Of a stretch of DNA of 64,000 nucleotides, positions 3,083 through 11,545 are shown piece by piece (position 1 is the first letter of the stretch; every line of letters begins with the position of its first letter). This DNA comes from Flavobacteriaceae bacterium LSUCC0859. Its GTDB lineage: Bacteria; Bacteroidota; Bacteroidia; Flavobacteriales; Flavobacteriaceae. The notes below the pieces were generated by a model. The model had not been told where the DNA came from, made no database searches, and worked only from the letters and a program-made list of their open reading frames with translations. The stretch lies in NCBI GenBank assembly GCA_022239325.1, contig JAKOGP010000005.1:1-64000 (forward strand). The letters are read 5' to 3'. The position numbers and the translations under genes were made by a program.

Positions 3083-3159
3083 GACTCAAATTTAAACATT
3101 CGTTTACAGACCCCATACCAGAAAATTGTAAATTTATGTCCAATCTAAATACGCGTACA

Positions 3160-4290
3160 ATGAAAAACATCCTATTCCCACTCATTTTTGGATTTGCAAC
3201 TACCATAGGAGTTATAGCTCAAGATCACAGCCATATGGGCGCCAAACCAATAGTGTACCCAGACATTCCAGGCTATAAAAGTCTGAGCACAGATTTGCAC
3301 ATCCATTCTGTGTTTTCAGATGGAAATGTATGGCCTACCATTAGGGTACAAGAAGCACTAAGAGAAAACTTAGACGCCATTTCTCTCACAGAACACTTGG
3401 AGTACCAACCACACGCTAAAGACCTCCCCCACCCAGACAGAAACAGGGCTTATGAATTGGCGCTTAAAGAAGCTGAAAATCACAACCTACTGATTATTCC
3501 GGGATCTGAAATTACAAGAGCTGCCCCGGTGGGCCATAATAATGCGGTGTTTATATCAGACGCCAATGCCCTTCTAGCAAAAGAAGCCCAGCAGCCTTTT
3601 GAGGTGGCCAAAAATCAGGGCGCATTTGTATTTTGGAACCACCCCGCTTGGTACGTACAACAACCCAAAGGGAACCCAGTGCTCTCCAACTTTCAAAAGA
3701 AACTCATTCAAGAAGGCAAGCTTCACGGGATTGAGGTAATAAATACCGGAGACTATGCAGAGGAATCTCTAGCCATTGCCTTAGAAAACAACCTAACCAT
3801 TATGGGTACCTCAGATGTTCACGACCTCATAGATTGGGACTATATCCAAAAAGGCCTCCACCGCCCCATCACATTAGTGTTTGCCAAAGAAAAATCTATA
3901 GAGAGTCTTAAAGAGGCACTTTTTGACAGAAGAACCGTAGCTATTTTTAATGGCCTGTGGGTAGGAAAAGAAGAATTTGTAGTACCACTGTTAGAGGCTA
4001 GCATTAGTGTCTCTGAGGTACATTATATTGGAAAATCTGAGGTGCTATCTGTGACCCTTCAAAACCATACTTCTAGCAATTTATTATTTGAAAATCAAAT
4101 GCAATACAGCTTGTACCACCACCCTCCAATTTTTGAGATTCCTGCGCATGGTAGCCTTACTATTCAAATTAAAACCTTAGAGCGAAAATCGGAAATGGAA
4201 CTCAAACTCAAAGCACTCAAAGCCTACACGGCACCAAAAACCCAGGCGGTTGCCAGCTGGAATATTCAGCTACTAGATTCTAACAACTAA
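3160..4290 (+). CDS. Secreted PHP-domain phosphoesterase (Sb-PDE-like)
   Basis: A signal peptide (MKNILFPLIFGFATTIGVIAQ) leads to a PHP-type metal-dependent hydrolase domain. Metal ligands are visible as TDLHIHSVFSDG (His47, His49, Asp54) and LTEH (Glu78, His79), with later histidines in WNHPAW and a GTSDVHD motif that closes the metal site. The family hydrolyses phosphate esters; the exported branch resembles bacterial phosphodiesterases of the Sb-PDE type, so release of phosphate from organic phosphodiesters in the periplasm is a reasonable guess. An ATG at 3136 would add nine residues before the signal; I chose 3160 because the signal peptide then begins normally. The C-terminal ~100 residues form a beta-rich appendage. 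Confidence 0.8.
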   Translation: MKNILFPLIFGFATTIGVIAQDHSHMGAKPIVYPDIPGYKSLSTDLHIHSVFSDGNVWPTIRVQEALRENLDAISLTEHLEYQPHAKDLPHPDRNRAYELALKEAENHNLLIIPGSEITRAAPVGHNNAVFISDANALLAKEAQQPFEVAKNQGAFVFWNHPAWYVQQPKGNPVLSNFQKKLIQEGKLHGIEVINTGDYAEESLAIALENNLTIMGTSDVHDLIDWDYIQKGLHRPITLVFAKEKSIESLKEALFDRRTVAIFNGLWVGKEEFVVPLLEASISVSEVHYIGKSEVLSVTLQNHTSSNLLFENQMQYSLYHHPPIFEIPAHGSLTIQIKTLERKSEMELKLKALKAYTAPKTQAVASWNIQLLDSNN

Positions 4291-4341: not shown

Positions 4342-5541
4342 ATGTTTAAAGCGATTAAAAATTTAGGGCCTGCTACACTAGTGGCAGCAGCCTTTGTTGG
4401 CCCTGGGACGGTAACGGTATGTGCCGCAGCTGGTATTACATTTGGCTACGGCCTTTTATGGGCTCTTTTAGTCTCAGTAGTCATGACCATTTTACTTCAG
4501 GAAATGGCTGTTAGAATTGGTATTGTAACCCAAAAAGACCTGGCCCAACTGCTCCATGATCACACAAAAAACTCCATACTAAAAATAGGGATTACGGGTC
4601 TTATTCTAGCAGCCATTGTCGTGGGTAACGCAGCTTATGAAGCGGGGAATATGAATGGTGCCGTTCTGGGGCTGCAGGCAATTTTTGGTGATGAATTTGC
4701 GGGCTTTTATCCCATTGTGGTGGGAGGAACTGCTTTTAGTTTGTTGTTCTTTGGAAACATACAACAACTTAGCCGCATACTTATTGGATTGGTACTGCTC
4801 ATGAGTCTGTCATTTGTAACCACCGCCCTTTTAACAGGGCCCTCTCTGCTGCAATTGGCCAAAGGATTTTTCCTCCCAAAAGTAAACTCAGAGAACCTCT
4901 TTACTATTATTGCCTTGGTGGGAACCACAGTGGTTCCATATAACTTATTTTTACATGCCTCCTTGGCCAAAGAGAGATGGAAAGACAGCTCCGGTTTAGC
5001 AGCTGCTAAAACAGACACTATAGTAGCTATAGGCCTAGGAGGCCTGGTCTCTATGGCCATAGTAGTGAGTGCAGCAGCCATACCCAGCACCCAATTAAAT
5101 TCCGTAATAGATGTAGCAAGCGGTTTGGAACCCCTTTATGGCAGTGCTGCCAAATACCTGATTGGACTGGGCCTCTTTGGAGCTGGAATTACCTCTGCTG
5201 TAACCGCACCACTGGCAGCAGCCTATGTGGCGAATAGCTGTTTTAACTGGAATGTGGCGACTAGCCATTGGAAATTTAAAGCCGTTTGGATGTTGGTTAT
5301 GGGAGTGGGAGTGCTTTCTTTAGGTAGCTCATTTAAACCTATTGCCGTCATCCAATTTGCGCAGATAGCTAATGGACTACTACTACCCATTTTGGTAGGC
5401 ACCCTTATTTGGGTCTCTACCTCCAATACAATTTTGGGAAACCACAAGAATTCTTGGAGTCAAAATACAGCATATCTTTTAATTTTTGTCTTTAGTTTGG
5501 CCCTCAGCATTAAAACATTTATAAAACTCCTTGGCTGGTGA
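4342..5541 (+). CDS. NRAMP-fold permease without metal ligands, probable 5-oxoproline transporter
   Basis: This hydrophobic 399-residue protein has about 11 membrane segments and the NRAMP/SLC11 pattern. The first helix carries FVGPGTVTVCAAAG where true Mn/Fe transporters have a DPGN motif, so Asp and Asn are replaced by Gly20 and Thr23. In helix 6 the usual MPHN becomes VPYN (Val198-Pro-Tyr-Asn), so the metal-binding Met is also gone. NRAMP-related proteins of this kind occur beside pxpABC, for example YcsG of Bacillus. The gene overlaps pxpA (GTGA). Inference: it imports 5-oxoproline or a related small acid rather than a divalent metal. It is first in the four-gene operon 4342-7804. Confidence 0.8.
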   Translation: MFKAIKNLGPATLVAAAFVGPGTVTVCAAAGITFGYGLLWALLVSVVMTILLQEMAVRIGIVTQKDLAQLLHDHTKNSILKIGITGLILAAIVVGNAAYEAGNMNGAVLGLQAIFGDEFAGFYPIVVGGTAFSLLFFGNIQQLSRILIGLVLLMSLSFVTTALLTGPSLLQLAKGFFLPKVNSENLFTIIALVGTTVVPYNLFLHASLAKERWKDSSGLAAAKTDTIVAIGLGGLVSMAIVVSAAAIPSTQLNSVIDVASGLEPLYGSAAKYLIGLGLFGAGITSAVTAPLAAAYVANSCFNWNVATSHWKFKAVWMLVMGVGVLSLGSSFKPIAVIQFAQIANGLLLPILVGTLIWVSTSNTILGNHKNSWSQNTAYLLIFVFSLALSIKTFIKLLGW

Positions 5542-6221
5542 AAATTGCTGCCCTACATATTAATTGTGACTTGGGAGAAGGGATGGCCAATGAATCTGCC
5601 ATATTTCCTTATATAGACGCCTGTAATTTGGCCTGTGGCGGGCATTTTGGTACCAAAGGGACTTTGGCAAAAAGCATGCAACAGGCCGTAAAACTCAGGG
5701 TAGTATGTGGGGCCCACCCCAGTTACCCAGACCTAGAAAATTTTGGAAGACAGTCTATAAGTATGGAGAAAAAAGCCTTTGTGAAAAGTGTGCAAGATCA
5801 AATGGCGCTTTTTATGGACGTTTTTCAGTACTACTTTCCGGGGCAAAAACTCCCTCATATTAAAGCCCACGGAGCCCTCTACAATGACCTATGCAATAAT
5901 AAAACCTTAGCCTCTTGGTTTATAGAGGCTATAGCACCCTTTAAGCCACAGGCCATCTTTACGCTTTCTCATGGAGTCCTAGCTCCATTGGCGGCAGCAA
6001 AAGACTATCGGATAGTAAAGGAGGCCTTTTTAGATAGGGCTTACACTACAGATGGATTTTTAAAACCCAGAAGCGAATCCGGCAGTGTGTTGCAAACAGC
6101 CCAAGCCGTATTGCATCAGCTGCCAAGCTTAGTTAAAAAAGGGGCCAATACCTTTTGTATTCACGGAGACCATCCGAACAGCTTAGTCATTTTAAAGCAA
6201 ATTAGACAAATGAATTTATGA
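5538..6221 (+). CDS. pxpA: 5-oxoprolinase subunit A (LamB/YcsF family)
   Basis: PxpA works with PxpB and PxpC to hydrolyse 5-oxoproline (pyroglutamate) to glutamate with ATP. The family signature is clear: INCDLGEG at residues 8-15, CNLACGGHFG, CGAHPSYPDLENFGR, then HIKAHGALYND and FCIHGDHPN near the C-terminus. At 227 residues it is slightly shorter than the usual 250. The start is GTG at 5538, overlapping the permease stop as GTGA; its own end overlaps pxpB as ATGA. These overlaps point to translational coupling of the whole set. Cytoplasmic. Confidence 0.92.
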   Translation: MKIAALHINCDLGEGMANESAIFPYIDACNLACGGHFGTKGTLAKSMQQAVKLRVVCGAHPSYPDLENFGRQSISMEKKAFVKSVQDQMALFMDVFQYYFPGQKLPHIKAHGALYNDLCNNKTLASWFIEAIAPFKPQAIFTLSHGVLAPLAAAKDYRIVKEAFLDRAYTTDGFLKPRSESGSVLQTAQAVLHQLPSLVKKGANTFCIHGDHPNSLVILKQIRQMNL

Positions 6222-6940
6222 AAGAACCACGGTATATTGAATTTTTTAGACTCAGTGAACAGGGGCTTCTGATACAATGGCCCAACGAGGTTTCTGCCTC
6301 TATTTTAAAAGAGGTCCGTGCCCTAACTAAGGCTATAGAAACACATTTCAAAGGAGTGTTTTGCACTCCAACCTATGCGTCTATCTTAGCAGTGTTTCCA
6401 ACACCAATTTCTAATTTAAAAGCTATAGAACTTGAAATACAAGAATTATTTAAGGCACTTAAACCCTCAGAATTTAAAGCCAAACACATAGAAATACCTG
6501 TTTGTTATGCCACTGAATTTGCACCAGACCTAGAGGATGTTTGCGAGCAATTACAGATGGAGTTTGAAGAGATTGTAAAGCGACATAGCAGTCCAAACTA
6601 CCTGATTTACGGCATTGGTTTTCTACCTGGTTTTATGTATTTAGGGGGCTTAGATCCCAGCCTGGAGATGCCCAGAAAAAGCACCCCCAGAACAGTTGTT
6701 CCCAAAGGTGCTGTGGGTATTGCTGCCAAGCAAACCGGTGTGTACCCTCATGAGAGTCCTGGGGGGTGGAACCTCATTGGAAACTGCCCTATAGACTTTT
6801 TTAAACCAGAGCAAAAAAAACCCTTTTTTGCTCAGGTGGGAGACCAGGTTTCTTTTGTACCCATTTCCAAAAGCGAATACAAACTCATTAAAATAGCTCA
6901 GGAAACTGGGGTATACACTCTAAAAACAAAGCCCCTTTAA
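6218..6940 (+). CDS. pxpB: 5-oxoprolinase subunit B (KipI-like)
   Basis: The protein has 240 residues with the carboxyltransferase domain 1 signature: YGIGFLPGFMYLGGLDP, MPRKSTPRTVVPKGAVGIA and TGVYPHESPGGWNLIG. In the family this subunit pairs with PxpC to phosphorylate or activate 5-oxoproline; the Bacillus relative KipI also inhibits KinA. It begins inside the pxpA stop codon (ATGA) and is followed by pxpC after 12 bases. Context makes the 5-oxoprolinase role far more likely than a kinase-inhibitor role. Confidence 0.92.
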   Translation: MKEPRYIEFFRLSEQGLLIQWPNEVSASILKEVRALTKAIETHFKGVFCTPTYASILAVFPTPISNLKAIELEIQELFKALKPSEFKAKHIEIPVCYATEFAPDLEDVCEQLQMEFEEIVKRHSSPNYLIYGIGFLPGFMYLGGLDPSLEMPRKSTPRTVVPKGAVGIAAKQTGVYPHESPGGWNLIGNCPIDFFKPEQKKPFFAQVGDQVSFVPISKSEYKLIKIAQETGVYTLKTKPL

Positions 6941-6952
6941 GTTATAAGTCCT

Positions 6953-7804
6953 ATGATAAAAGTGATAGAAACCGGTTTGTATACCAGCATTCAAGACCTC
7001 GGAAGGCCTCAGTGGCATTCCTTAGGCATTCCCTATTCTGGAGCCATGGACGCAGAAAGTGCCCACACTGCAAACGCCATATTGCAAAATAAACCCCAAG
7101 CAGCCGTCATGGAAATTACCATGACAGGACCCATTTTGCACTTTACTAAAGCCTGTTGGGTGGTATTTTCAGGAGCCCATATGCCCATTTATTTGGAACA
7201 ACAACAGCTGGTACAACACCAACCCCATTGGATTAAAGAGTCGCAGGAAATTCGTTTTGGTAAACTTACTAAAGGGCTCAGGCTCTACATGGCTATTAAA
7301 GGTGGTTTTAAAACTAACATGGTGCTGGGGAGTCGTTCTATGTGTAAGAATGTAAGCCCACATTTTATGTTGCAAAAAGGCATGGAGTTAGAAATTGAAA
7401 GTGGCACCAAAGACCAGGGGGTCTATTTAAAAGTGCAAACTCAAACTCCATTGCAAGCCAAAGAAATAAAAGTATACAAAGGGCCTGAGTACGACAAGCT
7501 AACTAAAGGACATTGGCAACAACTAGAAACACAAGAATTCCAAGTGAGTAACCTTAACAACAGAATGGCCTACCAACTTAATCCCAATATAGCTGCGCAT
7601 GAGATAAACCAAATGACTACCCCCGTAATACCCGGGACGGTGCAACTTACTCCTCAAGGTACCTTGATGGTGCTTATGAGAGACGGACAAACCACTGGCG
7701 GCTACCCTAGGATACTCCAACTCAGTGCCAAAAGTGTAAACGCCATGGCCCAACTAAAAACGGGAGACACCTTTCGTTTTAAATTAGTTAGCCTAGGGGA
7801 ATAG
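6953..7804 (+). CDS. pxpC: 5-oxoprolinase subunit C (KipA-like)
   Basis: The protein has 283 residues and belongs to carboxyltransferase domain 2. Motifs include GLYTSIQDLGRPQWHSLGIP, SGAMDAESA, the YKGPEYD region, and the C-terminal signature MVLMRDGQTTGGYPRI. PxpC pairs with PxpB; the two domains are often fused in other bacteria but are separate here. It is the last gene of the operon. The next gene, nadC, is convergent 86 bases away; arms GAATAGCT and AGCTATTC flank that gap, but I see no clear U-tract terminator. Confidence 0.9.
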   Translation: MIKVIETGLYTSIQDLGRPQWHSLGIPYSGAMDAESAHTANAILQNKPQAAVMEITMTGPILHFTKACWVVFSGAHMPIYLEQQQLVQHQPHWIKESQEIRFGKLTKGLRLYMAIKGGFKTNMVLGSRSMCKNVSPHFMLQKGMELEIESGTKDQGVYLKVQTQTPLQAKEIKVYKGPEYDKLTKGHWQQLETQEFQVSNLNNRMAYQLNPNIAAHEINQMTTPVIPGTVQLTPQGTLMVLMRDGQTTGGYPRILQLSAKSVNAMAQLKTGDTFRFKLVSLGE

Positions 7805-7890: not shown

Positions 7891-8772
7891 TTATGAGTGT
7901 GAAACCGCCTTTAAGCTCATATCTATAATGGGTACATTGTAGGTTAAAGCACCCATAGAAATATAATCTACCCCAGTCTCAGCGACTGCCACAATAGTTT
8001 CTTTAGTGATGTTTCCAGAGGCTTCTGTGGGGAGTCTTCCCCCAATGAGTTTAATAGCTTCTGTTAGCTTTTCTGGACTCATATTGTCTAATAGCAAACG
8101 GTCTACGCCACCCAAAGAGAGACAGCTTTGAACCTCCTCTAAATCTCTGCATTCCACTACAATTGGGAGCGGTTTGTGGTGAGTCTTTAAGTAGGCTTGG
8201 GTTCTGGAAATGGCCTGGGCCACTCCCCCACAAAAGTCTATGTGATTGTCTTTGAGCATGATCATGTCATAGAGGCCCATACGATGGTTCTCCCCACCAC
8301 CAATAGCCACCGCCCACTTTTCTGCCACTCTAAAATTAGGAGTGGTCTTTCGAGTGTCTAAAACCTTGCAGGAGGTATGGGCAATCAAGGACTGCCATTC
8401 TCTGGTTCTTGTCGCAATACCACTCATGCGCTGTAATGCATTGAGCAGGAGCCGCTCCACCCCTAAAATAGATATAGAAGGCCCTCTTAACTCTAGGCCC
8501 ACACTACCACTTGAAACCAAAGCACCGTCTAAAAACACCATATGGAGCTCCAATCTTGGGTCGTAAAGCTCACAAATACGAGCAGCCATAGCTACTCCTG
8601 CCAACACACAGTCTGCTTTAACCAACAATTGTGCTTTGGAAACCTCTTCAGATGGCAAACATGACAGGGCACTAAAATCACCTGCACCTATGTCTTCTGC
8701 CAGGGCATTTTGAATCAGAAGATCAATTTCTTTTTGGTATTTCTGGGGAAAGCTAGAGGGGGTATGTTTCAT
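7891..8772 (-). CDS. nadC: Nicotinate-nucleotide pyrophosphorylase (quinolinate phosphoribosyltransferase)
   Basis: NadC converts quinolinate and PRPP to nicotinate mononucleotide, CO2 and PPi, the last pathway-specific step of de novo NAD synthesis. The 293 residues carry the hallmark run VLDTRKTTPNFR, then GGGENHRMGLYDMIMLKDNH, with VECRDLEEV and EASGNIT later; length and motifs are normal. It is the third gene of nadA-nadB-nadC on the minus strand, 35 bases after nadB. ATG start. Confidence 0.95.
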   Translation of the reverse strand: MKHTPSSFPQKYQKEIDLLIQNALAEDIGAGDFSALSCLPSEEVSKAQLLVKADCVLAGVAMAARICELYDPRLELHMVFLDGALVSSGSVGLELRGPSISILGVERLLLNALQRMSGIATRTREWQSLIAHTSCKVLDTRKTTPNFRVAEKWAVAIGGGENHRMGLYDMIMLKDNHIDFCGGVAQAISRTQAYLKTHHKPLPIVVECRDLEEVQSCLSLGGVDRLLLDNMSPEKLTEAIKLIGGRLPTEASGNITKETIVAVAETGVDYISMGALTYNVPIIDMSLKAVSHS

Positions 8773-8807
8773 AAAAGGGTCGGTGTTTTTCTAGAACTGC
8801 CTTAAAA

Positions 8808-10547
8808 TTAAGTCTTTTCTTTTTCTAGATCTTTATTGTAAAAACCACCCCGATTTTCGGTAATGGCTTGTGATTGTTTCACAATTAAATACGCCACATT
8901 GGCTAAATTTCTGAGTTCACAAATCTCCAAGCTCAACTTCTTGTGTCTATACCAATCCTGGCTTTTCTGATAGATTTCTGCAATGGTTTTTTCTGCTTCT
9001 AACAATCCTTTGTGCGTCTTAAAAATTGCCACCTTATCCGACATGAGTTGCTGTAGCTCTTTTTTGGCCGCTCTAATGGCTTTTCTACTTTTTTCTAAGT
9101 CTCCCAAAACGTGCTGCCATGGAGGCAAGGCCTCCATAAAGGGGCGGTCTGCAGTCTCGCTAGCGAGCTGTGCCGCCACTTTTTCAGCGGCTCTATGTGC
9201 AAAAACTAGGGCTTCCAGTAGAGAATTTGAGGCCAGTCTGTTGGCTCCATGTAAACCAGTGTGGCTACACTCACCAATGGCATAAAGCCCTTTTAAAGAG
9301 GTTTGTGAATGGGCGTTTACGTCTATGCCCCCACAGAAATAATGCGCCGCTGGCAGCACTGGAATATAGTCTGTTAAAGGATCTATTCCAACGGAGACAC
9401 AAGCCTTATAAATATTGGGGAATTCCCTTTCAAAAGCAGTTTCACCCAAATGCGTTGCGTCCAAATACACATAATTCTCAGAGGGGTCTTGCTTTTTTAT
9501 CTCTATCTCTATAGCTCTGGCCACCACATCTCTTGGGGCTAAGTCTTTGCGAGAATCATAAGCAGCCATAAAGGCCTGCCCAGCTGTATTTTTAAGAATA
9601 GCTCCCGCCCCGCGCACTGCCTCAGAAATTAGAAAGGTCTCTCCTTGAATCGGCAAGGCCAATGCCGTAGGGTGGAATTGCACATAGGGTAGTTTTTCTA
9701 TATGAACTTTGGCCCTATATGCCGCAGCCAGGCCGTCTCCGCTGGCACCTTCTGGATTGGTGGTATGGGCGTATAGCTGGCCTGCACCACCTGTAGATAA
9801 AATGGTTGCCTGGGCCGTTATTTTTATAATTTCTGCATCTTTCTGAGAAATAACATAGGCGCCATAACACTGGTTTTCTTTGAGGTTTCTCTGTGTTTGA
9901 CCGCTATCCAATACTTTGTCTTTAGGGGAATTTTCACTTTCGGACACTGGCGCATTCTCCAGACCCTGAAGGTTTTGCCCTTCTGCAAAGCCAGTAGAAG
10001 TTGTTGCCAAACCTATGTGGTGGTTGGTAATGAGATCTACTAGGGTATGGTCTTCCAAAATACGAACATTGGGAAGGCTTTTTACCTTGGCAATCAGAGA
10101 CTTCTGAATCTCGTAGCCAGAGCGGTCTTTAAAGTGAACAATGCGCTTGGCAGAGTGCCCCCCTTCTTTACCCAAGTGAAAAGGGCTTGCAGAATTCTGG
10201 GGAGTGGCAGCTAGGTCAAAATGGGTGCCCCAAGAAACCAATTCTTCTAGACGCTGTGGGCCCTCCGACACCACAAAAGACACCACCTCAGGCTTGCAAA
10301 GACTGTCTCCAGCAATCAGGGTATCTGAAATGTGCTTTTCAAAAGAATCCAGTTCAAAATTTTGAACCACAGCAATCCCACCCTGTGCGTACTTGGTATT
10401 GGTTTCAATAAGAGCCCTTTTGGTAAGTAATAAAACCTCTTTCTCTGGAGAGTTTATAGCCAGTTTTATAGCAAAAGACAATCCTGCAATACCAGAGCCT
10501 ATGACCAGGCTGCCGGTATGTATATGTGTTTGTGGGTCCGTAGGCAT
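8808..10547 (-). CDS. nadB: L-aspartate oxidase with an unusual internal insertion
   Basis: NadB is an FAD flavoprotein oxidising L-aspartate to iminoaspartate for NadA. The FAD fingerprint GSGIAGLSFA is at residues 17-26; TKYAQGGIAVV, GGHSAKRIVH, QFHPTAL and the C-terminal GLHGANRLASNSLLEALV complete the family pattern. The enzyme is 579 residues, about 40 longer than the Escherichia coli protein. Most of the excess is a Glu/Ser/Asn-rich, low-complexity insertion at about residues 181-226 (9870-10007), between LITNHHIGL and CYGAYVI, likely a surface loop. It begins 8 bases after the nadA stop and is cotranscribed with it. Confidence 0.95.
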   Translation of the reverse strand: MPTDPQTHIHTGSLVIGSGIAGLSFAIKLAINSPEKEVLLLTKRALIETNTKYAQGGIAVVQNFELDSFEKHISDTLIAGDSLCKPEVVSFVVSEGPQRLEELVSWGTHFDLAATPQNSASPFHLGKEGGHSAKRIVHFKDRSGYEIQKSLIAKVKSLPNVRILEDHTLVDLITNHHIGLATTSTGFAEGQNLQGLENAPVSESENSPKDKVLDSGQTQRNLKENQCYGAYVISQKDAEIIKITAQATILSTGGAGQLYAHTTNPEGASGDGLAAAYRAKVHIEKLPYVQFHPTALALPIQGETFLISEAVRGAGAILKNTAGQAFMAAYDSRKDLAPRDVVARAIEIEIKKQDPSENYVYLDATHLGETAFEREFPNIYKACVSVGIDPLTDYIPVLPAAHYFCGGIDVNAHSQTSLKGLYAIGECSHTGLHGANRLASNSLLEALVFAHRAAEKVAAQLASETADRPFMEALPPWQHVLGDLEKSRKAIRAAKKELQQLMSDKVAIFKTHKGLLEAEKTIAEIYQKSQDWYRHKKLSLEICELRNLANVAYLIVKQSQAITENRGGFYNKDLEKEKT

Positions 10548-10555
10548 ATACTTTA

Positions 10556-11545
10556 TTAGGTAATGGCCAACATTCTATTTATAGGTTCGGCAGCTTGCGC
10601 AATGAGTTCCTTAGATAAATTAATTTCAGGAAGCTCATGCTTCATACAGAGGTATAATTTTTCTAGGGTATTGAGCTTCATAAAAGCACATTCACTACAG
10701 GCACAGGTGTCATCCTCTACCGGAGCTGGAATAAAGGTTTTATGAGGGGCTTTTTTTTGCATTTCGTGTAATATACCTGCCTCTGTAGCCACAATAAAAG
10801 TAGTAGCAGCTTCCTTCTGAATAAAATTCAGCAATCCAGAGGTACTACCAATATAATGGGCTATGTCTAAGACCTGAGACTCACTCTCTGGGTGGGCGAT
10901 AAACTTAGCATCTGGGTGGGCCTTAGCTAGTGCCACAATTTTTTCAAAAGAGAATGCCTCGTGTACCACGCAGGCTCCGTCCCATAAAATGAGGTCTCTC
11001 CCTGTTTCTTTGATCAGGTATCGGCCCAGATTTTTATCTGGGGCAAAAATAATAGGCTGGTCTTTGGGTATTGAATCTATAACCGCTACGGCATTGGAAG
11101 AAGTGCAAACAATATCTGAAAGGGCTTTAATGTCTGCAGAGCAATTAATGTAGGTAACCACCAAGGCCCCAGGGTGTTTGGCCTTAAAGGCGGCAAAATC
11201 CGTAGGTGGGCAGGAGTGAGCCAAAGAGCAACCCGCTTTAAGATCTGGCAACAACACTTTTTTGGTAGGATTTACAATTTTAGCAGTTTCTGCCATAAAA
11301 TGTACCCCTGCAAAAACAATGACGTCTGCGCTTATGTCTTGAGCAGCCTTTGCCAAATACAGCGAGTCTCCTAAATAATCTGCCAGTTCCTGAATTTCTT
11401 TGGACTGATAATAATGCGCCAAAATTACCGCATTCTTTTCTTTTTTGAGTCTCAAGATCTCTTTTGGCAAATCTATGTCTTTGGGAATAGGCTCCTTAAG
11501 GTATCCCCTTTTACTCAATTGCGTCAAATCTGGCATAGCCTCCAT
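10556..11545 (-). CDS. nadA: Quinolinate synthase
   Basis: NadA condenses iminoaspartate with dihydroxyacetone phosphate to quinolinate using a [4Fe-4S] cluster. The three expected cluster cysteines are visible: Cys106 in LKAGCSLA, Cys191 in WDGACVVHE and Cys285 in [28 protein letters not shown] and [13 protein letters not shown] also match the family. The protein has 329 residues. Extra cysteines (TCACSEC) just before the last ligand are common in this branch. First gene of nadABC; start ATG at 11545, with a second in-frame ATG three codons later. Confidence 0.95.

Follow-up and report, generated by a model that had tools for sequence, protein, structure and literature searches.

The permease-pxpABC operon

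The stretch of DNA analysed here, called the window throughout, comprises 64,000 nucleotides (nt) of contig JAKOGP010000005.1 of Flavobacteriaceae bacterium LSUCC0859, and the operon under study lies at positions 4342-7804. It consists of a gene for an Nramp-related permease followed by pxpA, pxpB and pxpC, all read in the same direction:

4342..5541, + strand: Nramp-related permease, 399 amino acids (aa), ATG start (open reading frame (ORF); PF01566, 264.7 bits; AlphaFold model with the NRAMP fold)
5538..6221, + strand: pxpA, LamB/YcsF family, 5-oxoprolinase subunit, GTG start (PF03746 LamB_YcsF, 192.5 bits)
6218..6940, + strand: pxpB (PF02682 CT_C_D, 211.6 bits; TIGR00370 over its cut-off)
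6953..7804, + strand: pxpC (PF02626 CT_A_B, 229.9 bits)

5-Oxoproline is the cyclic form of glutamate. The gene order and the overlaps given in a preliminary description of this DNA, made from its letters alone, agree with the ORF coordinates: the permease gene and pxpA share GTGA (5538-5541), pxpA and pxpB share ATGA (6218-6221), and pxpC follows pxpB after 12 nt. All four products score over their Pfam cut-offs (264.7 for the permease, against a gathering score of 29.8 for PF01566), and PxpB also passes NCBIfam TIGR00370 (187.5, cut-off 145.55). With the corresponding NCBIfam models, PxpA of the window reaches 176.6 (cut-off 213) and PxpC reaches 176.8 (equivalog model, cut-off 500). When each was aligned with 12 relatives, the invariant columns were kept in PxpA, which has a short C-terminal deletion, and all of them in PxpC, while one invariant column differs in PxpB.

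Fold and metal-site residues

In a HMMER alignment with solved NRAMPs, the D-P-G-N of transmembrane helix 1 (TM1) corresponds to G20-P21-G22-T23 of the window permease, and the G-A-T-V-M-P-H of helix 6 to G194-T195-T196-V197-V198-P199-Y200, with V198 in place of Met and Y200 in place of His. The replacement of the DPGN Asp and Asn by Gly and Thr, and of the helix-6 Met by Val, had been read correctly in the preliminary description. The positions concerned are the following, with canonical residue numbers and roles taken in part from PMC12873925:

4399..4410, + strand: unwound motif of TM1, G20-P-G-T23, DPGN in canonical proteins (sequence, alignment with solved NRAMPs, clade table)
4636..4650, + strand: TM3 motif Y99-E100-A-G-N103, in which E100 corresponds to the Asp and N103 to the Glu of canonical TM3 (clade table)
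4921..4944, + strand: unwound motif of TM6, G194-TTVVPY-N201, GATVMPHN in canonical proteins (sequence, alignment, clade table)
5278..5280, + strand: K313, at the TM9 start and close to the Arg pair of canonical proteins, register uncertain (clade table)

Conservation was counted among 68 representatives of the clade to which the permease belongs, here called the GPGT clade, which were clustered at 70% identity and chosen by a YNLFL-type motif. G20 is kept in 67/67, T23 in 66/67, and T195, V198 and N103 in 68/68; position 313 is R or K in all 68. Y200 and N201 are conserved by construction, as the motif that defined the group contains them, and are no independent evidence. The canonical comparison group was chosen by DPGN, which leaves only its TM6 Met and His as independent positions, and both are present in 18/18. 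Judged from these sequences, the substitutions exceed chance and are kept clade-wide. Neither the GPGT nor the GTTVVPYN stretch of the window protein contains Asp, Glu, Met, His or Cys, and the metal ligands are therefore not merely shifted at TM1 and TM6, a displacement that would have spoken against the preliminary description. What stays is the TM3 carboxylate E100, at the position of the canonical TM3 Asp (Glu in 62/68 representatives, Gln in 6/68); the canonical TM3 Glu is N103 in the window permease.

The AlphaFold model of the permease (mean pLDDT 89.2, pTM 0.89) has a predicted LeuT-type fold with unwound TM1 and TM6, the helix breaks falling at residues 18-21 and 197-199, the places expected of an NRAMP. 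Its closest structural matches include DraNramp (Z 48.6), EleNRMT (Z 45.5) and BfraNramp (Z 43.9); the solved NRAMPs and EleNRMT together top the fold list (Z 48.6 to 34.6), and other APC-type folds follow at about 29 or below. Together with the PF01566 match, the model thus supports the view that the NRAMP fold is kept. The canonical NRAMP/SLC11 proteins DraNramp and BfraNramp have this fold in common with the window permease, but differ in that their metal ligands are replaced in the permease. EleNRMT, an Nramp-related Mg2+ transporter, likewise lacks DPGN, whereas the TM1 of its aligned chain reads N-D-A-G-G.

Linkage to 5-oxoprolinase genes

The genetic coupling to pxpABC that was first read from the overlaps is conserved in the clade. 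Among 80 named loci, which are the best 80 of at least 590 relatives and as such the nearest ones rather than a random draw, pxpA lies downstream on the same strand in 76, within about 300 nt in 74. All three pxp genes are present in 75 of those 76, the last one ending at a contig edge, and the four named loci without an adjacent pxpA have one elsewhere in each genome. For the nearest relatives of the permease within the phylum, pxpA was found within 1.5 kb in 26/29. Across 395 genomes of the phylum, PxpA is encoded in 41/42 genomes with a permease of at least 41% identity, a line set after the list had been seen, versus 32/353 others (Fisher's p 1.9e-34, a value that ignores shared ancestry), and in 36 of the 41 the two genes are less than 2 kb apart. 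Genome G506 stands outside the 42, its permease frame being broken and lying beside pxp genes, and the sub-threshold PxpA hits of G238 and G496 were left out of the table. At 30 canonical DPGN loci, no pxp or hyu gene was found in flanks of up to 1.5 kb (0/30).

Linkage to hyuAB

Deeper members of the clade are tied to hyuAB, an ATP-dependent lactamase family that is non-homologous to PxpABC. Haloarchaeal relatives share 40-42% identity with the window protein, and hyuA and hyuB lie downstream of their genes. Ten plasmid-borne loci, of 25 listed, were viewed, and in seven of these hyuA starts 4-31 nt after the permease: all viewed loci of Haloferax, Haloarcula, Haladaptatus, Halobellus and Halocatena. 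The other plasmid-borne loci viewed, from Natrononativus, Pseudoalteromonas and Qipengyuania, have no hyuA directly after the permease. For Halobellus, hyuA was located by tblastn past the end of the gene table of the record, and hyuB was not seen there. In six Bacteroidota loci hyuA starts 6-9 nt after the permease or overlaps it, and PF01968 and PF02538 confirmed the family identity of hyuA and hyuB. A wider set of 53 Bacteroidota loci of the clade includes 14 with pxpA downstream on the same strand and 16 in which hyuA or hyuB lies no more than 3 kb away on the permease strand, besides one with hyuB at 5 kb and one with convergent hyuAB. The only one of the 42 genomes above that lacks PxpA, G410, has hyuAB 730 nt from the permease, also convergent.

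For haloarchaeal HyuA and HyuB the best model is caprolactamase, with scores under its cut-off, and for this reason the hyu link is better evidence for a cyclic amide than for 5-oxoproline specifically. Several haloarchaeal operons also contain a gene of the Asp/Glu/hydantoin racemase family. Elsewhere, at Halomontanus locus L075 (5944-7188), another Nramp-related protein is encoded between two Gfo/Idh/MocA oxidoreductase genes, which hints at organic substrates in other parts of the group. Among the plasmid records, NZ_CP064203.1 and NZ_OL790811.1 of PLSDB measure about 4 Mb and look like chromosomes of A. baumannii and P. mirabilis.

Two pxp-linked clades

The preliminary description had proposed checking whether pxpABC-linked members form a single clade in an NRAMP tree; instead, the GPGT clade and the clade of YcsG and MumT are separate. 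In a tree of 83 proteins, the GPGT clade comprises 50 rows with support 98/98, and the YcsG-type clade 7 rows with support 100/100 on a branch of length 4.3. An approximately unbiased (AU) test rejected a single clade uniting the 21 GPGT rows with pxp linkage and the 7 YcsG-type rows (p-AU 4.15e-38), in agreement with the tree. Canonical NRAMPs are separate from the GPGT clade, and the NRMT-like row L221 groups with other rows outside it, EleNRMT itself being absent from the tree. Group labels in the tree and in the clade table rest on sequence motifs. Rows dropped from the tree were four fragmentary ones, eight canonical near-copies and all but 16 Flavobacteriaceae-type representatives; four long rows were flagged, none of them within either clade. 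Row L113, labelled pxp though its pxpA lies 4.7 kb off on the opposite strand, was omitted from the AU test, and the YcsG-type set includes L213, a row without a nearby pxp gene.

Identity to B. subtilis YcsG (MntG) is 24% for the window protein and 55% for a Bacteroidota protein from the GPGF/GGTVGGY clade. Sequence searches of solved structures with YcsG-type proteins gave no matches, and YcsG was reached only via fold-library entry 9a52_A. A search for C. glutamicum pxpT with a 22-base primer end likewise gave no matches; PxpT is outside the tree, and its placement rests on its reported 50% identity to YcsG (PMC13274462). Like the window permease, YcsG and PxpT are Nramp-related, have no DPGN and accompany pxpABC, but they belong to the separate clade and have other TM1, TM3 and TM6 motifs. 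The likeness to the Bacillus ycs/kip region that had been pointed out earlier hence holds for the pxpABC company and fails for the lineage. Similarly, A. baumannii MumT is Nramp-related and has a PxpA homologue directly downstream, but sits in the YcsG-type clade. In the mumT homologue locus L210 (5899-7951), a PxpA homologue (339 bits) directly follows the permease and PxpB and PxpC homologues are also encoded, so that the 'urea' operon of MumT looks like a 5-oxoprolinase-type operon.

Within the phylum of the window, pxp operons contain members of both clades: among 35 further pxpA loci, 14 have a YcsG-type permease, which in 12 of these comes directly after pxpA. In three Bacteroidota pxp operons (L262, L263 and L270), a related 413-aa protein sits between pxpC and pxpA; the one that was tested, an MFS permease, may represent a further exchangeable importer.

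DUF2891 and other neighbouring genes

In 44 of the 80 named loci, a DUF2891 gene (PF11199) whose product has a lipoprotein-like start lies just upstream of the permease on the same strand, and in three further ones it lies 3 kb upstream; Pfam confirmed the family in four proteins, for example L180:6883-7998. Of the four loci that lack adjacent pxp genes, L185, L192 and L198 carry it, and L160 does not. DUF2891 occurs in 8 of 149 genomes of the window's class, so it is not confined to these operons, and the genome of the window has none.

The C. jejuni genes cj0552-4 code for DUF969, DUF979 and DUF2891, and a mutant from which all three are removed failed to use 5-oxoproline, in an experiment that its authors describe as preliminary (PMC12795558). 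The proposed 5-oxoproline transporter DUF969/DUF979 is thus encoded with DUF2891, as are many GPGT-clade permeases, though it belongs to different protein families than the permease. DUF969/DUF979 was found in none of the 149 genomes of the class, and no exchange of it with the permease was seen there. DUF2891 may act at a step of 5-oxoproline use outside the cytoplasm.

In the window, the place held by DUF2891 in many relatives is occupied by a gene for a PHP-domain, CehA/McbA-like metallohydrolase with DUF5001 (3136-4290, + strand), which ends 51 nt before the permease; tblastn found no copy of this gene in the 80 named loci. A cluster for NAD synthesis (7891-11545, - strand) converges on the pxp operon, with nadC followed by ORFs that, by names read from the sequence, resemble L-aspartate oxidase and quinolinate synthase. 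Further upstream (411-2246, - strand), an ORF of 611 aa resembles a surface or fibre protein, its sequence showing 'KGIIQLAGDLSGTA'-like repeat units and a stretch rich in Gly and Ser.

Discussion

The permease has a predicted NRAMP fold, the metal ligands are absent throughout its clade, and conserved operons link the clade to two ATP-dependent lactamase systems that are not homologous. Reasoning from sequence and gene company, we consider that it probably takes up 5-oxoproline, or else a small cyclic amide or acid much like it, rather than metal. As to the preliminary description, which suggested import of 5-oxoproline, this compound is upheld as the likeliest substrate, and the pxpABC linkage is conserved in the clade. 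The permease would then be a LeuT-fold secondary carrier of the GPGT clade, after which PxpABC would open 5-oxoproline to glutamate at the expense of ATP. The unwound parts of TM1 and TM6, with the small and neutral G20, T23, T195 and V198 and with Y200 and N201, may bind the carboxylate and the ring via main-chain groups and hydroxyls. Uptake would be driven by a cation, perhaps a proton via E100 in TM3 and the basic K/R313 in TM9, and the overlapping start and stop codons may couple translation of importer and enzyme.

Transport by this NRAMP branch had been called not established, a statement that is out of date in view of work on the separate YcsG/PxpT clade. Without PxpT, C. glutamicum no longer grows on 5-oxoproline, and the same is reported for a YcsG deletion in B. 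subtilis; pxpT alone complements, which answers the objection of polarity for PxpT, and metal transport is not excluded (PMC13274462). Labelled uptake does not appear in the passages of PMC13274462 or PMC10448178. Since gene linkage alone carries no direction, the permease might instead export 5-oxoproline or its product as a relief valve, or only sense it, and 5-oxoproline does build up in cells and medium of B. subtilis pxp mutants (told in PMC13274462). With PxpT and YcsG of the separate clade being needed for growth on external 5-oxoproline, we regard export or sensing as very improbable.

Several observations weigh against import of a cyclic amide, and experiments on the YcsG/MumT clade point in part to metal. 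NCBIfam files the window permease as a divalent metal transporter (NF037982, 73.9 against a cut-off of 50), and E100 could be a metal ligand. YcsG has been called a Mn2+ importer, as its overexpression raised cellular Mn and its promoter responds to MntR, and its phenotype on 5-oxoproline is said to be possibly polar (PMC10448178). In A. baumannii, a mumT mutant had less Mn and was complemented (PMC5050338). PxpA is described as a probable metal-dependent enzyme and the HyuB-type site contains a metal (PMC8453981), and pxp and hyu operons would also suit metal delivery to the enzymes. We found FeoB and two ZIPs in the genome of the window, but neither a canonical NRAMP nor a binding protein of the MntA/ZnuA type, so that a role in Mn uptake is not made redundant. 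As for the gene neighbourhoods, 21 of the 53 wide Bacteroidota loci have neither pxp nor hyu within reach, and the subgroup L088-L097, likewise without pxp or hyu, follows 2-oxoacid:ferredoxin oxidoreductase genes. In 7/11 loci of that subgroup the permease is directly preceded by two genes, which at L088 encode alpha- and beta-type subunits of such an enzyme, 16 nt from the permease.

The main rival is that of metal delivery to the lactamases, where the permease would import Mn2+, Fe2+ or Mg2+ for metal-needing PxpABC or HyuAB through a site made of E100, backbone carbonyls and water. That YcsG and MumT show Mn phenotypes in a clade that also lacks the ligands, and that EleNRMT carries Mg2+ although Nramp-related (PMC12873925, PMC9606685), fits such a function, as do the metal sites of HyuB-type enzymes and the fact that no other dedicated Mn importer was found in the genome. 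Conversely, the TM1/TM6 site has no acidic, Met or His residue, and the remaining carboxylate is Gln in some representatives. The clade, moreover, tracks one reaction class, ring opening, via two unrelated enzymes, and in C. jejuni DUF2891 accompanies a transporter candidate for 5-oxoproline that is not an NRAMP (PMC12795558). MumT itself, reported to raise cellular Mn (PMC5050338), has an operon that encodes PxpA, PxpB and PxpC homologues, and its Mn phenotypes might be read anew for that reason. On these grounds we judge metal supply decidedly unlikely.

Another organic substrate is conceivable within the same frame: hydantoins, lactams, glutamate-family acids or 2-oxoacids, differing by subclade, with 5-oxoproline arising from intracellular damage and PxpABC serving as a housekeeping enzyme. 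The hyu-linked members, with a racemase-family gene in several haloarchaeal operons and caprolactamase as the nearest named model, would suit this, and so would the subgroup beside 2-oxoacid:ferredoxin oxidoreductase genes. We nevertheless find it doubtful, given that the window's own subclade pairs with PxpABC with few exceptions, and that 5-oxoproline is the substrate common to PxpABC and part of the hyu-type family.

Were the ligands lost at all, as the preliminary description put it? This wording is not borne out. Proteins without the metal motifs are termed Nramp-related and are paraphyletic to the metal transporters in rooted trees, with the metal motif arising later (PMC12873925, a preprint), a phylogeny that allows the ligands never to have been present; a similar outgroup is described in PMC9606685 and PMC4072509. 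Our own tree is unrooted and gives no direction of change. As such, the substitutions mark an already known kind of protein, and a gain of ligands in the metal transporters is the more likely direction. Going further, the Nramp fold could have been an organic-solute carrier first, the GPGT and YcsG/MumT clades importing 5-oxoproline or cyclic amides for two unrelated families of ring-opening enzymes, and the metal NRAMPs descending from carriers of this kind through the gain of Asp, Asn, Met and His at the substrate site; on that view, the Mn phenotypes reported for YcsG and MumT would reflect a second activity or an indirect effect. We offer this tentatively, leaning somewhat against it.

Earlier papers already describe Nramp-related permeases without which cells fail to grow on 5-oxoproline, PxpT and YcsG, and also make the rival Mn2+ claim for YcsG. 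Apart from NRMT-like proteins and 'G-motif 3', which includes MntG, the Nramp-related groups are described as entirely uncharacterized in the passages of PMC12873925, and we found no literature joining the GPGT clade to pxpABC or hyuAB. What is new is a second, separate and uncharacterized Nramp-related clade tied to pxpABC, with deeper members tied to hyuAB. Both NF037982 and plasmid annotations list proteins of the clade as divalent metal transporters; should these proteins carry 5-oxoproline, the annotation would be wrong in a large set of genomes. The question whether YcsG transports 5-oxoproline or Mn2+ could then also be tested independently, on a second clade that has the same gene company, lacks the metal ligands and is also coupled to an unrelated lactamase. 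If true, this reading would furthermore bear on the origin of metal selectivity in the NRAMP fold.

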